Below are positions 14,841-24,235 of a stretch of 40,852 bases of DNA, one piece after another; position 1 is the first letter of the stretch; every line of letters starts with the position of its first letter. Position numbers and translations under genes: made by a program. The notes below the pieces were generated by a model. The model searched no databases. It was not told the origin of the DNA and worked only from the letters and a program-made list of their open reading frames with translations. The stretch comes from Candidatus Dormiibacterota bacterium (GTDB lineage: Bacteria; Chloroflexota; Dormibacteria; Aeolococcales; Aeolococcaceae). The stretch is taken from positions 1 through 40,852 of the forward strand of contig DASXNK010000113.1 of the NCBI GenBank assembly GCA_036495095.1. The letters run 5' to 3'.

Positions 14841-14935
14841 CGCCTCAGCTGCAGGGGCAGGTCCGTCTCACGACTCTGATTGCGGTCGTGAGCCTGCCGG
14901 ACAAACGCTCGTCTCTGTAGACTTCACCGGCGACC

Positions 14936-14976
14936 GATCCACTTCAAGCTGGTCCGGAGAGGCCGGCAAGGGGATC
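14936..14976 (+). promoter_or_regulatory. PyrR-binding RNA hairpin in pyr operon leader
   Basis: The leader of the pyr operon contains GGTCCGGAGAGGCC at 14951-14964. This fits the PyrR binding-loop consensus as I remember it (A-R-U-C-C-N-G-N-G-A-G-G-Y-U) at 12 of 14 positions; the two exceptions are the outermost pair, where A-U is replaced by G-C, so pairing is kept. GATCC (14936-14940) pairs with GGATC (14972-14976) and CTT with AAG to close the lower stem. With UMP bound, PyrR would grip this loop and lower pyr expression. The operon itself encodes PyrR as its second gene. Confidence 0.72.
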
Positions 14977-15022
14977 GTGGCGCCGCCGCCGGCGATCCGG
15001 CCACGCTGCGCCGCGCGCCTCT

Positions 15023-15055
15023 CTGCCGTCCCGCCTCGCCGGCGGAGGAGGGCAG
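15023..15055 (+). promoter_or_regulatory. Hairpin sequestering the pyrB ribosome-binding site
   Basis: CTGCC (15023-15027) pairs with GGCAG (15051-15055) and CCGCC (15031-15035) with GGCGG (15041-15045), so the strong GGAGGAGGG Shine-Dalgarno before the ATG at 15059 lies in the 3' arm. Another hairpin, CGTGGC (14976-14981) with GCCACG (15000-15005), lies between this and the PyrR loop. The layout suggests translational control or attenuation by alternative folding. Confidence 0.5.
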
Positions 15056-15058
15056 ACG

Positions 15059-16000
15059 ATGGTGACCACGGCCCAGCCCCGCCTCCTCGACCACGTCGTC
15101 AGCGCGCACCAGTTCGACCGCGACCTCCTCGAGCAGGTGGTCGAGCGCGCCGCCGCCCTGGACGGGGTGCGGGACCGCCGGCTCGAGGGCCGCATCATGG
15201 CCACGCTCTTCTACGAGCCCAGCACCCGCACCCGGCTCTCCTTCGAGTCGGCGATGGTGCGGATGGGCGGCTCGGTGATCGGCACCGAGGCGGCGCGAGA
15301 GTTCTCCAGCGCCATCAAGGGCGAGACCCTCGAGGACACGGTGCGCATGGTGGAGGCCTACGCCGACGTCATCGTCCTCCGTCACGACGAAGCCGGGGCG
15401 GCGGCCCGCGCCGCCGCGGTGGCGAGCGTGCCCATCGTCAACGCCGGCGACGGCCCCGGGGAGCACCCCACCCAGGCGCTCCTCGACCTGGTCACCATCC
15501 ACCGCGAGCTGGGCCGGGTGGACGGCCTCCACGTGATCCTCTGCGGCGACCTCCGCCACGGCCGCACCGCGCGGTCGCTGGCGCTGCTGCTCACCCTGTA
15601 CCAGGGGGTGCGGATCACCATGGTGGCGCCGCAGGTGGTGCAGATGGAGCCCGACATCCTCGGGCTGCTGCACTCCCGCGGGGTGCCGTACAGGATCACC
15701 GACAACCTCATCGAGGCGGTCGCCGACGCCGACGTGGTCTACCAGACGCGCATCCAGAAGGAGCGCTTCGCCGATCCCGCCGACTTCGGCCGGGCCCGCG
15801 GCGACACCCGCATCGACGCCCGGGTGATGGCGCGGCTGCCCGCGGCGGCGATCGTCATGCACCCGCTGCCGCGGGTCGACGAGATCCACCCCGAGGTCGA
15901 CGCCGACCCCCGCGCCGCCTACTTCCGGCAGGCGCGCAACGGGGTGGCGGTGCGGATGGCGCTGCTGGAGATGCTGCTCGGGGAGAACCTGCCCGGATGA
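15059..16000 (+). CDS. pyrB: Aspartate carbamoyltransferase catalytic subunit
   Basis: A 313-residue enzyme that makes N-carbamoyl-L-aspartate from carbamoyl phosphate and aspartate, the committed step of pyrimidine synthesis. The carbamoyl-phosphate loop is EPSTRTRLSFE (residues 53-63, S-T-R-T-R at 55-59). GEHPTQALLDL and the aspartate-binding HPLPRVDEI motif are present. Length is normal for the catalytic chain; no pyrI regulatory chain is seen, as in other PyrR-controlled operons. GGAGGAGGG lies just before the ATG. It is the first gene of the operon, ahead of pyrR, and its stop overlaps the pyrR start (ATGA). Confidence 0.97.
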   Translation: MVTTAQPRLLDHVVSAHQFDRDLLEQVVERAAALDGVRDRRLEGRIMATLFYEPSTRTRLSFESAMVRMGGSVIGTEAAREFSSAIKGETLEDTVRMVEAYADVIVLRHDEAGAAARAAAVASVPIVNAGDGPGEHPTQALLDLVTIHRELGRVDGLHVILCGDLRHGRTARSLALLLTLYQGVRITMVAPQVVQMEPDILGLLHSRGVPYRITDNLIEAVADADVVYQTRIQKERFADPADFGRARGDTRIDARVMARLPAAAIVMHPLPRVDEIHPEVDADPRAAYFRQARNGVAVRMALLEMLLGENLPG

Positions 16001-16608
16001 CCGGGTCGCCGCCGGGGGCGTCGTCCCGCCTGCTCGACTCGGCCGAGCTCAGCCGCGCGGTGCGCCGCCTCGCCCACGAGGTGCGCGAGCGCCATCCCGG
16101 GCTGGCCGGGGTGGTGCTCGCCGCGGTCTGCGACGGCGGCATGCCCCTCGCCCGCCGGCTGCGCGACCAGCTCGCCGAGCTCGGCGAGCCGGAACCGCCG
16201 CTCCTCGCCCTCGACGTCCGCGACTACCGAGACGACCGGCCCCGCCCCGCCCGGCCGGTCGCCGGGGCGCTCCGCCGGGTGCCCCCGGCGGGCGGCGGCG
16301 GTGGCGCGCTCGAGCCGGCGCGGGTCGAGGCGGCCACGGTGGTCCTGGTCGACGACGTCATCCACACCGGGCGCACCCTGCGGGCGGCGCTCGATCTGCT
16401 CGCCGACCACGGCCGGCCGGCCGCGGTGGAGCCCCTGGTGCTGATCGACCGCGGCCACCGCGAGCTGCCGGTGCGCGCCACCTACGTGGGCCGCAACCTG
16501 CCCGTGGCCGCCGGCTCCTGGGTGGAGGTGGTCTGGGACCCGGCGGGGGCGGGGGCCTGGCTGGTGGAGCCGCAGCCGGCCACCCCGGGTGGGGGGCCGC
16601 CGGCGTGA
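15997..16608 (+). CDS. pyrR: Bifunctional pyr operon regulator / uracil phosphoribosyltransferase PyrR
   Basis: A 203-residue PRTase-fold protein that senses UMP and binds pyr leader RNA; many members also have weak uracil phosphoribosyltransferase activity. The PRPP loop is VVLVDDVIHTGRT, and the family signature LIDRGHRELPVRATYVGRNLP keeps the His, Arg and Arg that bind RNA in B. subtilis PyrR (H140, R141, R146 as I recall them); AHE keeps H22. Two positions differ: the K-T-R-G motif around T41 reads C-D-G-G, and T18 is Arg. An inserted Pro/Gly-rich segment precedes the PRPP loop and the C-terminus is Pro/Gly-rich, making it longer than the usual 180 residues. The ATG overlaps the pyrB stop, and a GTGA junction leads to pyrC. 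Confidence 0.92.
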   Translation: MTGSPPGASSRLLDSAELSRAVRRLAHEVRERHPGLAGVVLAAVCDGGMPLARRLRDQLAELGEPEPPLLALDVRDYRDDRPRPARPVAGALRRVPPAGGGGGALEPARVEAATVVLVDDVIHTGRTLRAALDLLADHGRPAAVEPLVLIDRGHRELPVRATYVGRNLPVAAGSWVEVVWDPAGAGAWLVEPQPATPGGGPPA

Positions 16609-17957
16609 CCGTGCTCAACGTCGTCCTCCGCGGCATCCGGGTCATCGACCCGCTCGCCGGACGAGACCAGGTGGACATGGACGTCTGGCTGCGCGGCGGG
16701 CGGATCGAGGCGATCGAGCGCCGGATCCGCACCGACCAGGTGCCCACCCTCGACCTCGCCCGCGCCCCCGGCCTTCCCGAGGTGGTGCTCTGCCCCGGCT
16801 TCATCGACCTCCACACCCACCTGCGCGAGCCCGGCGGCGAGGACGCCGAGACGGTGAGCAGCGGCGCCGAAGCGGCCGCGGTGGGGGGCTTCACCCAGCT
16901 GGTGGCGATGGCCAACACCCGCCCCCCGGTCGACAGCCCGGAGCGCCTCGCGGACGCCCGCCGGCGCGCCCGCCAGGCCCCGGTGCGGGTGCTGAGCGCC
17001 GCCGCGGTCACCACCGGCCTGCGCGGCCGCGAGCTGGTCGACACCGCCGCCTGCGCGGCGGCCGGCGCCGCCGCCTTCACCGACGACGGCCGCAACGCGG
17101 CGCCGACCCGGCTGCTCGCCGAGGCGCTTCGCGCCGCCGCCGAGGTCGACCGGGTGGTGCTGGTCCACCCCGAGGACGAGTCGATGGTGGCCGCCGCCAA
17201 CCCCGACGTGCCCTCGGTGATCCGCTGCCCCCACCGCCCCGCCGAGTGCGAGGTGGTGGCGGTCGAGCAGGCGCTGCGTGCTCTCACCCAGGCGGGTCGC
17301 GGCCGGCTCCACCTCCAGCACCTGTCCTGCGCCGGCTCGCTGAACCTGCTCCGCACCGCCCGCGAGCTCGACTTCCCGGTGACCGCGGAGGTGACCCCGC
17401 ACCACCTGGCGATGTGGCTGCCCTTCGAGCGCGAGCCCGACCCCCCGGCGCTCCGCAAGGTGAACCCGCCGCTGCGCACCGAGCAGGACCGCCGCGCCCT
17501 GGTGGAGGCGCTCCGCGAGGGCGTCCTCGACGCCGTCGCCACCGACCACGCCCCCCATCCCGCCGAGGACAAGGTGGGCGACTACGCCGACACCGCCCCG
17601 GGGATGATCGGGCTGGAGACGGCGCTCGCCACCTGCCTCACCCTGGGCGGGATGGGCGGCTCCTGGCTGCCGGTGCTGGTCGAGCGGCTCACCGCCGGCC
17701 CCTGGCGGGTGCTCGGCGCCGCCGCCGGGCTGCGCGAGCCGCGGCTGCGCCTGGCCCAGCCCTGCAGCTTCACGGTCTTCGACCCCGACCAGGAGTGGGT
17801 GGTCGGGTCCGAGCCGCTGCGCTCGCGGAGCGGCAACACCCCGCTGCTCGGCGTGCCGCTGCGCGGACGGGTGCTGCTCACCGTCTCCGAGGGAGCCATC
17901 GTCCACCTCTCCCCGTCACTGGAGCTGCCGGGGCTCACCGCGGTGCCGGGTGGCTGA
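16605..17957 (+). CDS. pyrC: Dihydroorotase
   Basis: A 450-residue class I dihydroorotase that closes carbamoyl aspartate to dihydroorotate. The zinc ligands are visible: DLHTHLREPG (His70, His72), AAFTDDG (the bridging Asp of the type with no carbamylated lysine), HPEDE, LQHLS and the catalytic TDHAPH. The MANTRPPVD substrate segment is typical. The start is GTG 16605 overlapping the pyrR stop; a second GTG six bases on is possible. It overlaps the next frame by 8 bases. Class I dihydroorotases often form complexes with PyrB, and adjacency in one operon fits that. Confidence 0.95.
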   Translation: MTVLNVVLRGIRVIDPLAGRDQVDMDVWLRGGRIEAIERRIRTDQVPTLDLARAPGLPEVVLCPGFIDLHTHLREPGGEDAETVSSGAEAAAVGGFTQLVAMANTRPPVDSPERLADARRRARQAPVRVLSAAAVTTGLRGRELVDTAACAAAGAAAFTDDGRNAAPTRLLAEALRAAAEVDRVVLVHPEDESMVAAANPDVPSVIRCPHRPAECEVVAVEQALRALTQAGRGRLHLQHLSCAGSLNLLRTARELDFPVTAEVTPHHLAMWLPFEREPDPPALRKVNPPLRTEQDRRALVEALREGVLDAVATDHAPHPAEDKVGDYADTAPGMIGLETALATCLTLGGMGGSWLPVLVERLTAGPWRVLGAAAGLREPRLRLAQPCSFTVFDPDQEWVVGSEPLRSRSGNTPLLGVPLRGRVLLTVSEGAIVHLSPSLELPGLTAVPGG

Positions 17958-20900
17958 GCGGGGCCGGCTGGCCCTGGAGACGGGGCGCTGCTTCGAGGGC
18001 GTCCTGTTCGGTGCCGAGGTGTCCGAGGCGAGCGGGGAGGTGGTCTTCAACACCTGCATGACCGGCTACCAGGAGGTCGCGACCGACCCCTCCTACGCCG
18101 GCCAGGTGGTGGTGATGACCCATCCGCTGATCGGCAACTACGGCTGCCGTGACGAGGACGCGGAGTCGGCGCGGGTGTGGGCGCGCGCGATGGTGGTGCG
18201 CGAGCTCTCCCCGCAGATCGGCCACCCGCTCGGCGAGCGCAGCCTCGACGAGGAGCTGCGCCGCAACGGCGTCCCCGGCCTGCGCGGGGTCGACACCCGC
18301 GCCCTGACCCGCCACCTGCGCGACCACGGCACGGTGCGGGCGGTGCTCGCCCCGGCGGCGGTGATGAGCCCCGAGGAGCAGGTGGCGCGGGCCCGCACCG
18401 CGCCCCACGTCGGCGACCAGGACCTGGTCGCCGAGTGCACGCTCCGCGAGCCGTGGATGCTCTGGGAGGAGCCGCTGCACCCCACCCTGGAGCGCGCGCT
18501 CCGCGCCGCCGGCGGGGTCGGCGCCTTCGCCGGGGTGCGGATCGTCGCCGTCGACCTCGGGGTGAAGCGCAACAGCCTGCGGGCCCTGCGCAGCCGTGGC
18601 GCCGAGGTGGTGCTGGTGCCCTGCGACGCCACCCTCGACGACGTGCTCCGCCACCGGCCCGCAGGGGTGATGCTCTCCAACGGCCCCGGCGACCCGGCGG
18701 TGCTCCCCGGGGCGGTGCGCCTCTGCGCCGCCCTGCTGGAGCGGCGCGTCCCCCTGCTGGGCATCTGCCTCGGCCACCAGGTGCTCGGCCGGGCGGTGGG
18801 CGCCACCACGTCGAAGCTCAAGTTCGGCCACCACGGCGGCAACCACCCCGTCCACGACCTCGCCGGCGGCGGCGTCTTCGTCACCTCGCAGAACCACGAG
18901 TTCCAGGTCGACGGCGGCTCGATCCCCGAGGGATCGGGCTGGTACGTGAGCGAGCGCAACCTCAACGACGGCAGCGTCGAGGGGTTGCGCCACACCAGCC
19001 AGCCCGCCTTCTCGGTGCAGTACCACCCCGAGGGCGCCCCCGGCCCTCAGGACCGCGCCGCCGTGTTCGACGAGTTCCTGTCGATGGCGGCAGGAACGAG
19101 CGGGCCGGCGGTGGTGGTGCGGACGGCACCGGAGCCCGGGCCCGCCACCGACCCGCCGCGCTGCGTGCTGGTGGTGGGCAGCGGCCCGATCGTCATCGGC
19201 CAGGCGGCCGAGTTCGACTACGCCGGCACCCAGGCCTGCCGCGCCCTCCGCGAGGAGGGCATCCGGGTCGTGCTGGTGAACAGCAACCCGGCGACGATCA
19301 TGACCGACGACGACAGCGCCGACGCCGTCTACGTCGAGCCGCTCACCGTGCCCGTGATCGAGCGGATCATCGAGCGGGAGCGGCCCGACGGCCTGCTCGC
19401 CACCCTCGGCGGCCAGACCGGGCTCAACCTCGCCATCGCCCTCGACGACGCCGGCGTGCTCGAGCGCCACGGGGTGCGACTCCTGGGGACGCCGCTCCGC
19501 GCCATCCGCGCCGCCGAGGACCGTGAGCTCTTCAAGCGGCTGCTCGTCGAGATCGGCGAGCCGGTGCCGGCGTCGGCGACGGTGTCCTCCCCGGCGGAGG
19601 GGCGGGCGGTGCGCGAGCAGCTGGGGCTGCCCCTGGTGGTCCGCCCCGCCTTCACCCTCGGCGGCACCGGCGGCGGGATCTGCGAGAGCGAGGCCCAGTA
19701 CACCGAGACGGTGGCCTCCGGGCTCGCCGCCTCGCCGATCGGCCAGGTGCTGGTGGAGCGCTCGCTGCTGGGCTGGCGCGAGCTCGAGTACGAGGTGATG
19801 CGCGACGCCTCGGGCACCTGCATCACCGTCTGCAACATGGAGAACCTCGACCCGATGGGGGTGCACACCGGCGACTCCATCGTGGTCGCGCCCTCCCAGA
19901 CGCTCACCGACCGCGAGCACCAGCAGCTGCGCAGCGCAGCGCTGCGGATCATCAACGCGCTGGAGATCGCCGGCGGCTGCAACGTGCAGTTCGCCCTCGC
20001 CCCCGACTCCCACGAGTACTTCGTCATCGAGGTGAACCCGCGGGTGTCGCGGTCCTCGGCCCTCGCCTCCAAGGCGACCGGGTATCCGATCGCGCGCGCC
20101 GCCGCGAAGATCGCCGCCGGCCGGCGGCTCGCCGAGATCACCAACCCGGTCACCGGGCAGAGCTGCGCCGCCTTCGAGCCCGCCCTCGACTACTGCGTGG
20201 TGAAGATCCCGCGCTGGCCCTTCGACAAGTTCCCCGAGGGCGACCGGCGGCTCACCACCCAGATGAAGTCGACCGGCGAGGTGATGGCGATCGAGCGCTC
20301 CTTCGAGGCGGCGATGGTGAAGGCGATCCGCTCGCTCGAGCAGGGCCGGCCGGATGCCGCCCAGCTGGGCTCGGCGGTGCTGATCGACGCCCCCAACGAC
20401 CGCCGCCTCTTCGCCATCCTCGAGGCGCTGCGCCGCGGCGTCCCCGTCGCCGAGCTTGCGGCGCGCAGCGGCTACATGCCCTGGTTCGTGGAGCGGCTCG
20501 CCACCATCGTCGTCGCCGAGGAGCGGCTGCGGACCGAGGGCCTGGAGGCGAGCGCGCTCACCGCCGCGAAGCGGCTGGGCATCGCCGACGCCCGCATCGC
20601 CGAGCTCTGCTCGGTGCGGGCGGCGGCGGTGCGCGGCGCCCGCGAGGCCGCCGGGCTGGTGCCCGTCTACCGCTGCGTCGACACCTGTGCCGGCGAGTTC
20701 GAGGCCTCGACGCCGTACTACTACTCGACCTTCGACGAGGAGGACGAGGGGCCCGCCGGCACGGTCCGCGAGAGCGGCGACGCCGGCCCGGTGGTGGTGC
20801 TCGGCTCGGGGCCGATCCGGATCGGCCAGGGCATCGAGTTCGACTACTGCAGCGTCCAGGCGGCGCTGGCGCTGCGCCGCCGCGGGGCCGAGGCGGTGAT

Positions 20901-22416
20901 GGTGAACAGCAACCCGGAGACGGTGTCCACCGACTTCGACTGCAGCACCCGGCTCTACTTCGAGCCCCTCGACGAGGAGGCGGTGGCCGGTGTCATCGCC
21001 GCCGAGCGTCCCCGGGGCGTGGTGGTGCAGTTCGGCGGCCAGACCGCCATCAACCTCGCCGCCCCGCTGACCGCGCGCGGGGTGACCCTGCTGGGGAGCG
21101 GGGTCGACGCCATCGACGCCGCCGAGGACCGCCACCGCTTCGAGGCGCTGCTCCGCACCCTCGACATCCCCCAGCCCCCCGGGGCGGCGACCGTCGATCC
21201 GGTGGAGGCGCTGGCGATCGCCGACCGGATCGGCTTCCCGGTGCTGGTGCGGCCCTCGTACGTGCTCGGCGGACGGGCGATGGAGGTGGTCCACGGCCGG
21301 GACGCGCTGGAGCGCTACCTGGTCGCCGCGATGGCCGCGGTCCCCGACCAGGACAACGGGCGCCGCGGCACCGTGCTCGTCGACAAGTACCTGCTCGGCA
21401 CCGAGGTGGAGGTCGACGCCATCTGCGACGGCGAGGCGGTGGTGATCCCCGGGATCATGGAGCACGTCGAGCGCGCCGGCGTGCACAGCGGCGACTCGAT
21501 GGCGGTGTACCCCGCCGCCCTCGACCCGGAGGTGCGCGCGCAGGTCGTCGACGCCACCACCCGGATGGCGCTGGCGCTCGGGGTCCGCGGCCTCTGCAAC
21601 GTCCAGTACGTGGTCCATCGCGGCCGGGTGCACGTCATCGAGGTGAACCCCCGGGCGTCGCGCACGGTGCCCTTCCTCAGCAAGGTCACCGGGGTGCCGA
21701 TGGTCGAGCTCGCGGTCCGGGTGATGCTCGGCGAGACCCTCGCCGGCTGCGGCTGGGAGGGGGGCGTGGTGGCGGAGCGGCCGCTGGTGGCGGTGAAGGC
21801 GCCGGTGTTCTCGATGGTCAAGCTCACCGCCGTCGACAGCGTGCTCAGCCCGGAGATGAAGTCGACCGGCGAGGTGATGGGGGTGGACGTCGACCTCGGC
21901 GCCGCCCTCGAGAAGGCCTTCCTCGCCACCCTCGGGTCACTGCCGAGCAGCGGCGGCGCGCTCTGCAGCATCGCCGACGCCGACAAGCCGGAGGCGCTGC
22001 CGGTGCTCGCCCAGCTCAGCGGCCTCGGCTTCACCCTCTACGCCACCGAGGGCACCGCCGCCACCCTCCGCGACGCCGGCATCAGCGCCGTCACCGTCGG
22101 CAAGCTCGGCAACGGGCGCCCCAACGTCATCGACGTCATCGAGGACGGCCGGGTGTCGCTGGTGATCAACACGCCGTCGGGCGTCCAGACCGACGAGCTC
22201 CGATTCGACGCCAGCTTCGACGGCTCGGCGCCGCGGAGCGTGAAGGACGGGTTCCTCATCCGCCTCGCCGCGGCGCGGCGGCGCATCCCCTGCTGCACCT
22301 GGCTCGACACCGCCGCGGCGCTGGTCAACGTGATGAGCCGCCACCACGCCGGCGAGCAGATCGCCGTCGCCACGGTGCGCGGCTACCGCGACGGCACCGT
22401 CGCCGCCCGCCGGTGA
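17950..22416 (+). CDS. carAB: Fused carbamoyl-phosphate synthase, CarA (glutaminase) + CarB (synthetase) in one polypeptide
   Basis: One uninterrupted 1488-codon frame. Residues about 1-381 are a complete CarA: the N-terminal small-chain domain (FNTCMTGYQEV, HPLIGNYG), then a class I glutaminase with nucleophile Cys273 (GICLGHQ), His359 and Glu361 (YHPEG). A Gly/Pro-rich linker of about 22 residues (382-403) follows. From Arg404 there is a full CarB of 1085 residues: VLVVGSGPIVIGQAAEFDYAG, first ATP-grasp domain (LGGTGGG, EVNPRVSRSSALASKATGYP), oligomerisation domain, second ATP-grasp (VVVLGSGPIRIGQG, EVNPRASRTVPFLSKVTG) and the MGS-like allosteric domain. Ammonia from glutamine would be channelled to make carbamoyl phosphate for PyrB. 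Bacterial carA and carB are normally separate; fusions are the eukaryotic arrangement. The linker has in-frame ATG and GTG codons without a good ribosome site, so internal initiation is unlikely but not excluded. GTG start. Confidence 0.95.
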   Translation: MAERGRLALETGRCFEGVLFGAEVSEASGEVVFNTCMTGYQEVATDPSYAGQVVVMTHPLIGNYGCRDEDAESARVWARAMVVRELSPQIGHPLGERSLDEELRRNGVPGLRGVDTRALTRHLRDHGTVRAVLAPAAVMSPEEQVARARTAPHVGDQDLVAECTLREPWMLWEEPLHPTLERALRAAGGVGAFAGVRIVAVDLGVKRNSLRALRSRGAEVVLVPCDATLDDVLRHRPAGVMLSNGPGDPAVLPGAVRLCAALLERRVPLLGICLGHQVLGRAVGATTSKLKFGHHGGNHPVHDLAGGGVFVTSQNHEFQVDGGSIPEGSGWYVSERNLNDGSVEGLRHTSQPAFSVQYHPEGAPGPQDRAAVFDEFLSMAAGTSGPAVVVRTAPEPGPATDPPRCVLVVGSGPIVIGQAAEFDYAGTQACRALREEGIRVVLVNSNPATIMTDDDSADAVYVEPLTVPVIERIIERERPDGLLATLGGQTGLNLAIALDDAGVLERHGVRLLGTPLRAIRAAEDRELFKRLLVEIGEPVPASATVSSPAEGRAVREQLGLPLVVRPAFTLGGTGGGICESEAQYTETVASGLAASPIGQVLVERSLLGWRELEYEVMRDASGTCITVCNMENLDPMGVHTGDSIVVAPSQTLTDREHQQLRSAALRIINALEIAGGCNVQFALAPDSHEYFVIEVNPRVSRSSALASKATGYPIARAAAKIAAGRRLAEITNPVTGQSCAAFEPALDYCVVKIPRWPFDKFPEGDRRLTTQMKSTGEVMAIERSFEAAMVKAIRSLEQGRPDAAQLGSAVLIDAPNDRRLFAILEALRRGVPVAELAARSGYMPWFVERLATIVVAEERLRTEGLEASALTAAKRLGIADARIAELCSVRAAAVRGAREAAGLVPVYRCVDTCAGEFEASTPYYYSTFDEEDEGPAGTVRESGDAGPVVVLGSGPIRIGQGIEFDYCSVQAALALRRRGAEAVMVNSNPETVSTDFDCSTRLYFEPLDEEAVAGVIAAERPRGVVVQFGGQTAINLAAPLTARGVTLLGSGVDAIDAAEDRHRFEALLRTLDIPQPPGAATVDPVEALAIADRIGFPVLVRPSYVLGGRAMEVVHGRDALERYLVAAMAAVPDQDNGRRGTVLVDKYLLGTEVEVDAICDGEAVVIPGIMEHVERAGVHSGDSMAVYPAALDPEVRAQVVDATTRMALALGVRGLCNVQYVVHRGRVHVIEVNPRASRTVPFLSKVTGVPMVELAVRVMLGETLAGCGWEGGVVAERPLVAVKAPVFSMVKLTAVDSVLSPEMKSTGEVMGVDVDLGAALEKAFLATLGSLPSSGGALCSIADADKPEALPVLAQLSGLGFTLYATEGTAATLRDAGISAVTVGKLGNGRPNVIDVIEDGRVSLVINTPSGVQTDELRFDASFDGSAPRSVKDGFLIRLAAARRRIPCCTWLDTAAALVNVMSRHHAGEQIAVATVRGYRDGTVAARR

Positions 22417-23279
22417 CCGCGGCGGCGGCGGCCCGGCTCTCCGACCTCGGCCGCGCCGCCGACGAGGGCGGCGAGGTGGTGGGGGTCGAGCACCTCGGCG
22501 GCGGCCTCGTCGAGCTGTCGGTGCGCCTCCCGCACCTCGCCGCGGCCGCCCGGCCGGGCGAGTTCGCCCAGCTGCGCTGCGGGCCGCCGCCGCTGCCGCT
22601 GCTCCGCCGCCCCTTCAGCGTCGCCTGGGTGGACGGCGAGGTCTGCGCCTTCGTGTTCGAGCCGGTGGGGGAGGGTACCCGGCGGCTGGCCGCGCTCCGC
22701 GCCGGCGACCCCCTCCAGTCGCTGGGGCCGCTCGGCACCGGCTTCACCCTGCCCGCTCGCGGCCGGGTGGTGTGCGTCGCCGGCGGCCTCGGCTGCGCCC
22801 CCTTCCCGCTGGCGGCGCGACGGGCCCGGCAGGCGGGCGCCGCGGAGGTGGTGGTGCTCAATGGCGCCGCCTCGGCGGAGCGGCTGTACCCCGCGGAGCG
22901 GCTCTCCCGCGGTGACCCGGGGATCCGGGTGGTCGAGGCCACCGACGACGGCAGCCGCGGCCACCGCGGCCACGTCACCGACCTGGTGACCGGCGAGCTG
23001 GGCGGCGCCGCCGTGCTCTGGGCCTGCGGGCCCAACCCGATGCTGGTCGCGCTCGCCGCGGTGCTCGGCGGGGCCGGCGTCGCCCTCCCGCCGGTCGTCG
23101 AGGCCTCGCTCGAGGCGCCGATGGGCTGCGGCTTCGGCACCTGCCTCGGCTGCGCCCTGCCGGTGCGCGACGGCGCCGGCGGCCGCTTCGCGCTCTGCTG
23201 CCGCGAGGGCCCGGTGATGCCGGTCGACGCCGTGGACTGGGAGGCGCTGGCGGCGCTGCCGCCGGCGCACGTCGCATGA
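22413..23279 (+). CDS. pyrK: Dihydroorotate dehydrogenase electron transfer subunit
   Basis: A 288-residue ferredoxin-reductase-like protein that passes electrons from PyrD to NAD+ through FAD and a [2Fe-2S] cluster. The FAD-binding motif is RRPFSVAW, followed by LGPLGTGF, the nucleotide-binding VAGGLGCAPFPLAAR and CGPNPML. The cluster cysteines are C239-x4-C244-x2-C247 and C262 (or C263) in GCGFGTCLGCALP and ALCCREGP. It is somewhat longer than many PyrK proteins because of an Ala-rich N-terminus. The start is GTG, overlapping the carAB stop as GTGA, and an ATGA overlap leads to pyrD, so the two subunits are translationally coupled. Confidence 0.95.
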   Translation: MTAAAAARLSDLGRAADEGGEVVGVEHLGGGLVELSVRLPHLAAAARPGEFAQLRCGPPPLPLLRRPFSVAWVDGEVCAFVFEPVGEGTRRLAALRAGDPLQSLGPLGTGFTLPARGRVVCVAGGLGCAPFPLAARRARQAGAAEVVVLNGAASAERLYPAERLSRGDPGIRVVEATDDGSRGHRGHVTDLVTGELGGAAVLWACGPNPMLVALAAVLGGAGVALPPVVEASLEAPMGCGFGTCLGCALPVRDGAGGRFALCCREGPVMPVDAVDWEALAALPPAHVA

Positions 23280-24235
23280 CCCGGCTCGACCTCGGCGTCG
23301 ACCTCGGCCGGGGGCTGGTGCTGCCCAACCCGATCGGCGTCGCCAGCGGCACCTTCGGCTACGGCTTCGAGTTCGAGCAGCTGGTCGACATCCAGCGGCT
23401 GGGGGCGATCTGGACCAAGGGCACCACCCTGCTGCCCCGGGCGGGGAACCCGCCGCCGCGGGTGGCCGAGACCACCGGGGGCATGCTGAACAGCATCGGC
23501 CTCCACAACCCCGGCGTCGAGCACGTGGCCACCGTCTACGCGCCCCGCTTCGCCGGCTGGCGGGTGCCCGTGGTCGTCAACGTCGCCGGCGGCGGCCTCG
23601 AGGAGTACGTGGCGGTGGTGCGCCGCCTCGAAGGCGTCCCCGGCGTCGCCGGCATCGAGCTGAACATCTCCTGCCCGAACATCGCCCACGGCCTCGACTT
23701 CGGCCGCGACCCCGCCGCCGCCGCCCGGGTGGTCGAGGCGGTGCGGGCGGTCACCCGGCTCTGCCTGGTGGTGAAGCTGAGCCCGAACGTCACCGCCATC
23801 GCCGAGGTCGCCCGGGCGGTGGAGGCCGCCGGCGCCGACGCGATCAGCGCCGTGAACACGTTCGTGGGCATGAAGGTTCACCTCGGGGTGCGCCGGCCGG
23901 TGCTGCCCCGCGGCGGCACCGGCGGCCTCAGCGGGCCGGCGATCAAGCCGCTGGCGCTCGCCGCGGTGGCGGCGGTGCGGGCGGCGGTGCGGGTGCCGGT
24001 GGTGGGCGTCGGGGGGATCTCCGCCGCCGCCGACGCGCTGGAGTTCTTCGTGGCCGGCGCCGACGCCGTCCAGGTGGGCACCGCGAGCTTCGCCGACTGC
24101 GGCGCGGCGCTCGAGGTGCTCGAGGGCTGCGTCGCCTACGCCGCCCGCCACCGCCTCGGGCGGCTCACCGAGCTGCGCTGGACGCCTCCCTCCGATCGCG
24201 TCGAATCACCCCCGACGCCGACGTCGGTACGATGA
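23276..24235 (+). CDS. pyrD: Dihydroorotate dehydrogenase class 1B, catalytic subunit
   Basis: A 319-residue FMN TIM-barrel enzyme oxidising dihydroorotate to orotate, working with PyrK in the cytosol. NPIGVASGTFGYG is the N-terminal signature, and NSIGLHNPG binds substrate. Cys133 in ELNISCPN is the active-site base of class 1 enzymes. VKLSPNV, AVNTFVGMK, GGLSGPAIKPLAL and VGVGGI (FMN phosphate) are intact. It is the last pyr gene here; pyrF and pyrE, which often follow in such operons, are absent. The short C-terminal tail after LTELRW is unlike the family and may be non-structural. Confidence 0.96.
   Translation: MTRLDLGVDLGRGLVLPNPIGVASGTFGYGFEFEQLVDIQRLGAIWTKGTTLLPRAGNPPPRVAETTGGMLNSIGLHNPGVEHVATVYAPRFAGWRVPVVVNVAGGGLEEYVAVVRRLEGVPGVAGIELNISCPNIAHGLDFGRDPAAAARVVEAVRAVTRLCLVVKLSPNVTAIAEVARAVEAAGADAISAVNTFVGMKVHLGVRRPVLPRGGTGGLSGPAIKPLALAAVAAVRAAVRVPVVGVGGISAAADALEFFVAGADAVQVGTASFADCGAALEVLEGCVAYAARHRLGRLTELRWTPPSDRVESPPTPTSVR

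Follow-up and report, generated by a model that had tools for sequence, protein, structure and literature searches.

A predicted PyrR-type translational switch, laid out like an attenuator, in the pyr leader of a Dormibacteria genome

The leader of the pyrimidine operon in the window (the whole stretch of 40,852 nucleotides that was analysed) is predicted to control translation, and very probably does so; we lean towards the reading that it acts as a PyrR-controlled translational switch with the layout of the Bacillus pyr attenuators. The computed basis for this is a PyrR-type hairpin (H1), its conservation and its link to the PyrR protein, the lack of a terminator, a predicted hairpin that sequesters the ribosome site, and mutually exclusive pairings whose effect is above that in shuffled sequences. 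From these we infer binding of PyrR and UMP, the direction of control and the structure of the ON state in cells. PyrR control is known as transcription attenuation in Bacillus and as translational repression in mycobacteria, and the present arrangement joins the logic of the attenuator to a Shine-Dalgarno output. In the parts of the literature that were searched we found no description of such a relay from a PyrR hairpin to a Shine-Dalgarno sequence, which is no proof that none exists; one survey of 43 RNA families, PyrR included, covered 255 genomes, five of them Chloroflexi (PMC3766115).

The window genome (4.4 Mb, 96.6% complete), from a soil bacterium, has its closest PyrB relatives, within the named genome collection, in two genomes that carry the label Chloroflexi bacterium (PyrB identities of 88 and 77%). 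The relatives ranked third to fifth are labelled Candidatus Dormiibacterota, and from these labels we take the class to be Dormibacteria; the labelled relatives are metagenome-assembled genomes throughout. The pyrimidine operon occupies positions 15059-24235 in the order pyrB-pyrR-pyrC-carAB-pyrK-pyrD, with pyrR as the second gene:

15059-16000 (stop included), + strand: pyrB, aspartate carbamoyltransferase catalytic subunit
15997-16608 (stop included), + strand: pyrR, uracil phosphoribosyltransferase / pyr mRNA-binding regulator (NF003549, 143.3 bits, cut-off 138)
16605-17957, + strand: pyrC, dihydroorotase
17950-22416, + strand: carA-carB, fused carbamoyl-phosphate synthase
22413-23279, + strand: pyrK-like electron-transfer subunit (scores under the NCBIfam cut-offs)
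23276-24235, + strand: pyrD, dihydroorotate dehydrogenase

All five gene junctions overlap by 4-8 nt, and translational coupling is therefore plausible. The PyrR protein (203 aa) matches solved PyrR structures, and alignments to these showed that the PRPP motif and the RGHRELP segment are retained. The carA and carB genes share one frame of 1488 aa (TIGR01368 at 7-379, TIGR01369 at 401-1461); a single open frame was also seen in at least 12 of 25 relatives, most of the remaining ones being interrupted by contig ends. A GTG-started open reading frame of 543 aa (14977-16608) runs from just 3' of H1 over pyrB in another frame and into pyrR, and is probably a by-product of the high GC content.

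Folded alone, the leader RNA forms three hairpins, H1, H2 and H3. The elements of the leader, including the strands that are proposed to change partners, are:

14918-14923, + strand: TAGACT, a possible -10 element picked out by eye
14936-14976, + strand: H1, predicted PyrR-binding hairpin of the anti-antiterminator type (loop core GTCCGGAGAGGCC at 14952-14964, CAA bulge at 14945-14947)
14959-14973, + strand: R, the 3' half of H1 and proposed anti-sequestor strand (partner 15018-15037)
14977-15014, + strand: H2, spacer hairpin rich in GC, part of either proposed state
15016-15037, + strand: M, strand common to both proposed states, its partner being the ribosome site in OFF and R in ON
15016-15064, + strand: H3, hairpin predicted to sequester the ribosome site and start codon of pyrB
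15044-15052, + strand: GGAGGAGGG, Shine-Dalgarno sequence of pyrB

The upper stem of H1 (14948-14954 with 14961-14967) carries the loop CGGAGA, the CAA bulge faces one unpaired A, and the lower stem consists of 14942-14944 with 14969-14971 and 14936-14940 with 14972-14976. An earlier note on this DNA, made from the letters alone, had described two further hairpins after the binding loop, the last holding the pyrB Shine-Dalgarno sequence, and the predicted fold contains both, as H2 and H3. The Shine-Dalgarno sequence starts 68 nt past the end of H1 and 80 nt past the loop motif, in agreement with the note's distance of about 80 bases and with its view that coupling needs alternative pairing. 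Compared with shuffled sequences the leader fold is only mildly more stable (z -1.63; 12 of 200 shuffles were as good), and stability alone is therefore no evidence. A simple scan of the leader returned 0 terminator-like sites and a T-tract was also absent on inspection, as the note had said of the final hairpin; with the last hairpin covering the ribosome site and a terminator absent, its preference for translational control over attenuation stands. The consensus scan of the leader gave no sigma-70 promoter. The TAGACT word, if it is a -10 element, would put the transcript start near 14930, just 5' of H1, and TANNNT-like words were seen by eye 5' of H1 in many relatives.

The sequence GGTCCGGAGAGGCC was confirmed at 14951-14964, where the note had placed a PyrR-consensus loop closed by a lower stem. 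The window holds a single copy of the core motif GTCCNGNGAGGCC. Shuffling gives an expectation of 0.27 copies, and the motif turned up in 23 of 100 shuffled versions, so by itself it proves nothing; the evidence for a PyrR site is the place, structure and conservation of the motif. A PyrR consensus for loop and upper stem is given as ARUCCAGAGAGGYU in PMC7430163, and GGUCCGGAGAGGCC at 14951-14964 follows it with the outer A..U pair changed to G..C and one loop letter changed from A to G. That paper describes the internal bulge as important (PMC7430163), and H1 has a purine-rich internal bulge (CAA, 14945-14947) above a lower stem. An Rfam scan of the leader gave no match at the gathering score. 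The best match to RF00515 (PyrR), 23.0 bits at 14937-15024 against a cut-off of 54, was the only one with E <= 10 returned for the 4.4-Mb genome; the hairpin in the 5' half of the model aligns well, including loop, stems and bulge, and the downstream half fits poorly. The note had named the lack of an Rfam match combined with a lack of conservation as grounds for giving up the element. The first was indeed found at the cut-off, and the second was not, since conservation is strong.

Leaders of pyrB were collected from relatives, and the alignment comprised 45 of 57 H1 sequences, 12 near-identical ones being left out. Across these 45 leaders the loop positions are mostly invariant or nearly so, nine of 11 pairs have changed on both sides and 88.1% of cells pair. 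None of 500 shuffles attained any of five covariation measures, and alignments in which H1 was slid scored lower on every measure (nearest slide, +2: 18 vs 22 both-side-changed cells). A covariance model of H1 (R1) was built from the 45 sequences; its E-value on the window, 1.7e-10, is non-independent, as the window sequence is among the 45. Matches to R1 were found in 97 of 110 class genomes and the PyrR protein in 98 of 110; both were present in 96, neither in 11, and only 3 were discordant (Fisher p 2e-12). The discordant cases have technical causes: two genomes have PyrR without H1 because contigs break inside pyrB (G017, G039), and in a third (G350) H1 is present and PyrR is missing because the contig stops 37 nt past H1. 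The PyrR protein is encoded in the window genome and pyr genes lie downstream of H1. On these sequence grounds H1 is a genuine PyrR-type leader element, which would bind PyrR with UMP. The next-best R1 match in the window genome is insignificant (E 0.33), and the regulon is therefore probably this single pyr operon. Second R1 matches in two other genomes (G041, E 0.0063; G037, E 0.01) were considered as further PyrR sites and rejected, the loop being absent by eye, and a scan of the phylum with the bare pattern matched 301 of 301 genomes and was thus useless.

Some variants were seen among the relatives. One genus (g27; L184, L190, L199) has exchanged letters in the stem that closes the loop and reads GGCCnGnGAGCC in place of GGTCCnGnGAGGCC, possibly reflecting a co-evolved PyrR specificity. 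Four genomes of family f1 (G006, G009, G015, G019) have no PyrB match, PyrR or H1 and possibly have reduced pyrimidine synthesis; G009 is only 65% complete and G006 retains carAB. A further genome, G012, has only a distant carbamoyltransferase.

Coupling of H1 to the ribosome site was analyzed as opening cost, the free energy required to make the Shine-Dalgarno core accessible. It was computed for RNA in which H1 was forced and for RNA whose H1 5' arm was masked, leaving the 3' half free. In the window the cost was 11.0 kcal/mol with H1 forced and 2.5 kcal/mol with the 5' arm masked, a difference of 8.6 that none of 60 spacer shuffles reached; with other RNA ends and site widths the window difference stayed high, and shuffles reached it in 1/300, 1/150, 2/100 and 3/150 cases. 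When all of H1 was masked the cost was again high (17.5 vs 17.8 with H1 forced for a 9-nt site, 13.5 vs 16.0 for the longest RNA), so the opening is due mainly to the release of the 3' half. The freed strand 14959-14973 is predicted to pair with 15018-15037 around H2, which excludes the pairing of 15016-15035 with 15041-15064; since the same strand pairs either with R or with 15041-15064, the two pairings are mutually exclusive. The switch that the note had proposed, GCCGGC at 14962-14967 pairing with GCCGGC at 15038-15043, was not borne out. Both words are present and palindromic, but their pairing probability was 0.0 whether H1 was free or blocked, and the fold in which they were forced together reached -60.5 vs -75.6 kcal/mol; the alternative that is supported is 14959-14973 with 15018-15037.

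The window's order (families f1 and f2) includes 38 genomes with H1, of which 37 have long leaders, with the start codon 74-109 nt past the H1 loop motif, and one (G005) a short leader. The order-wide test covered 36 of the 37 long leaders in 14 genera, L014 being left out as part of its 5' arm is missing. Genus averages of the opening cost were 7.78 kcal/mol when H1 was kept, 4.60 when only its 5' arm was masked and 7.21 when H1 was masked entirely. The genus-averaged difference, 3.18 kcal/mol, compares with 0.66 +- 0.46 kcal/mol in 60 shuffle rounds (maximum 1.44), and the difference exceeded the shuffled mean in 32 of 36 leaders and in all 14 genera; the effect of H1 was absent in L018, L019, L024 and L025. 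Spacers were also exchanged between genera and duplex energies compared. The own spacer was better for pairing of the Shine-Dalgarno sequence with M in 10 of 14 genera (p 0.0012) and for pairing of R with M in 9 of 14 (p 0.018); it was not better in the other four and five genera, respectively, and for pairing of R with M g9 was clearly worse. Plain duplex energies against shuffles were weak (mean z -0.58 for R with M and -0.89 for the Shine-Dalgarno sequence with M in 37 leaders) and not unusual for the window alone (p 0.155 and 0.44, respectively), and the opening-energy test was used instead. In one genus, g19, the ribosome site seems by eye to be sequestered by a short local hairpin instead.

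The energies also show a bias towards the closed state. The free fold of the window RNA (-75.6 kcal/mol) keeps both H1 and the sequestering hairpin; among folds with an open ribosome site, computed with the H1 5' arm masked, the best has -57.3 kcal/mol. The probability of H1 in the free ensemble is 0.77 in the window and below 0.1 in 14 of 36 order leaders (e.g. L030, L122, L127; L014 left out). For three leaders of genus g15 (L030, L122, L126) the free fold is itself predicted to have the anti-sequestor pairing. When only the upper-stem strand was masked, the open state of the window lay 13.4 kcal/mol above the free ensemble; this is close to the means of 12.7 in 23 terminator-bearing leaders of the phylum, themselves predictions, and 11.5 in the order, which only shows that the window is not special. 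The bias towards OFF may reflect the limits of the energy model, but the folding energies as modelled speak against the window as a simple equilibrium switch. A reading in which PyrR binds H1 without any switch, altering RNA stability or ribosome standby while the sequestering hairpin is constitutive, would agree with this retention of both hairpins in protein-free folding and with the four uncoupled leaders of the order. We nevertheless regard it as improbable, as in every genus the opening cost depends on H1 more than it does in shuffles, and the pairing of R with M is, on the whole, genus-specific.

The switch that we favour instead would work as follows. At high UMP, PyrR, encoded by the gene after pyrB, would bind and lock H1, so that its 3' half is occupied, M (15016-15037) pairs with the Shine-Dalgarno region and pyrB is left untranslated; the genes after pyrB would also be turned off, through possible translational coupling at the overlapping junctions. 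At low UMP, PyrR would be released and 14959-14973 would pair with 15018-15037 around the spacer hairpin, thereby freeing the ribosome site. In this scheme the sequestering hairpin, with no U-tract, would stand in for the terminator of the classical attenuator.

Outside the class, 40 leaders were taken from the better-scoring rows among 127 hit-bearing genomes. A terminator hairpin with a T-tract follows H1 in 23 of these 40, 56-115 nt past the loop motif, and the cost of opening its 3' arm depends on H1 (12.8 vs 9.0; shuffled 6.1 and 5.6). GAGG lies within the 12 nt that precede the T-tract in 19 of the 23, and about 18 have an ATG or GTG no more than some 10 nt beyond it (by eye, irrespective of frame). 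The other 17 leaders fail the automatic terminator rule; by eye they include about seven direct-occlusion types and several with missed T-tracts. The layout in the window's order looks like an attenuator of the other classes, in its proportions, minus the T-tract. This shared succession of H1, spacer and hairpin is also what a transcriptional reading can draw on, namely an attenuator in which Rho or pausing replaces the missing U-tract, and C-rich leaders suit Rho. Such control is unlikely here: the window has no terminator-like site, in 35 of the 37 long leaders the U-runs close to the start reach no more than 1-2 nt, and the 3' arm of the last hairpin is the ribosome site itself.

A different layout was found in families f3 and f4, where 60 of 60 R1 sites have AAGGAG, a Shine-Dalgarno sequence, at the 3' foot of H1 and the start codon a few nucleotides further on. 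With the Shine-Dalgarno sequence inside H1, bound PyrR would therefore cover the ribosome site directly. Fields and Switzer (2007) reportedly found PyrR-dependent translational repression in Mycobacterium smegmatis, in which PyrR is said to occlude the first ribosome site. The window resembles that case in having a PyrR site in a pyr leader with no terminator and, as we predict, translation as the controlled step. However, its Shine-Dalgarno sequence (15044) lies outside H1 (which ends at 14976) and alternative pairing would be needed to reach it; it is f3 and f4 that show direct occlusion of the M. smegmatis type. In f4 genomes (e.g. L188, L197, L207) about six T in a row come within a few nt of the PyrR hairpin and lead to the start codon (AAGGAGGTTTTTTCATG), and the hairpin could combine PyrR site, ribosome block and terminator in one.

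Could the window use direct occlusion as well, with the 3' arm of H1 (AAGGGG) serving as the ribosome site of a start further upstream or of a short open reading frame in the leader? The precedent of f3 and f4 and the presence in the order of one short leader and of three leaders with an in-frame start soon after H1 (L003, L018, L023) would be in its favour. We consider it quite unlikely, since within 120 nt the only in-frame pyrB starts in the window are 15059 and 15062, the GTG at 14977 opens a frame other than that of pyrB, and a start right after H1 is missing, by eye, in most of the 37 long leaders; an upstream start or leader frame was rejected for the window, as the in-frame starts of the three leaders show no conservation. 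In the short leader (L136, 553-596, genome G005, the window's family), the only one of its kind in the order, pyrB starts almost directly after H1; spacer and sequestering hairpin look deleted or never gained. Finally, a chance lookalike of the motif in a GC-rich leader, for which the Rfam score under the cut-off, the core motif that is not rare and the modest fold z-score might be quoted, is barely credible, given the covariation, the co-occurrence with PyrR and the position before pyrB, and is already contradicted by the conservation.

The PyrR-controlled translational switch remains our preferred reading, and B. subtilis offers one of its nearest models. The pyr attenuators of B. subtilis (PMC7430163, PMC4347634) share with the window a PyrR-type hairpin with the loop UCCNGNGAGG and a bulge, and a PyrR gene in the operon. 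In them the 3' half of this hairpin has a second possible partner, the 5' arm of a hairpin further downstream, and the hairpins exclude each other; for the window the same exchange is predicted, but its ON form is disfavoured by the folding energies. The B. subtilis scheme has an antiterminator helix B-C (PMC7430163), and the predicted pairing of 14959-14973 with 15018-15037 would be its counterpart in the window. The window departs from B. subtilis in its downstream hairpin, which lacks a U-tract and includes the Shine-Dalgarno sequence; the output would accordingly be translation.

For the phylum as a whole we tentatively suggest, with somewhat less than even confidence, that one order of the Dormibacteria made the PyrR attenuator into a translation switch by loss of the U-tract, that two other families fused the PyrR and ribosome sites, and that the phylum thereby presents a series from terminator through relay to direct occlusion; the PyrR of f4, where many hairpins end in AAGGAGGTTTTTT, might both stabilise a terminator and block the ribosome. 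In riboswitch platforms one sensor domain is found with either a terminator or a Shine-Dalgarno-sequestering hairpin; in the window the sensor would be the protein PyrR and not the RNA itself. If true, the series would be the protein-borne counterpart of riboswitch platform exchange.

Three-helix attenuation logic with a ribosome site at the place of the terminator would join both modes of PyrR control. It would also show that RNA switches worked by a protein can swap their output stage as riboswitches do. For the organism itself, the leader offers a testable site of pyrimidine control in a group whose labelled relatives are all metagenome-assembled genomes.
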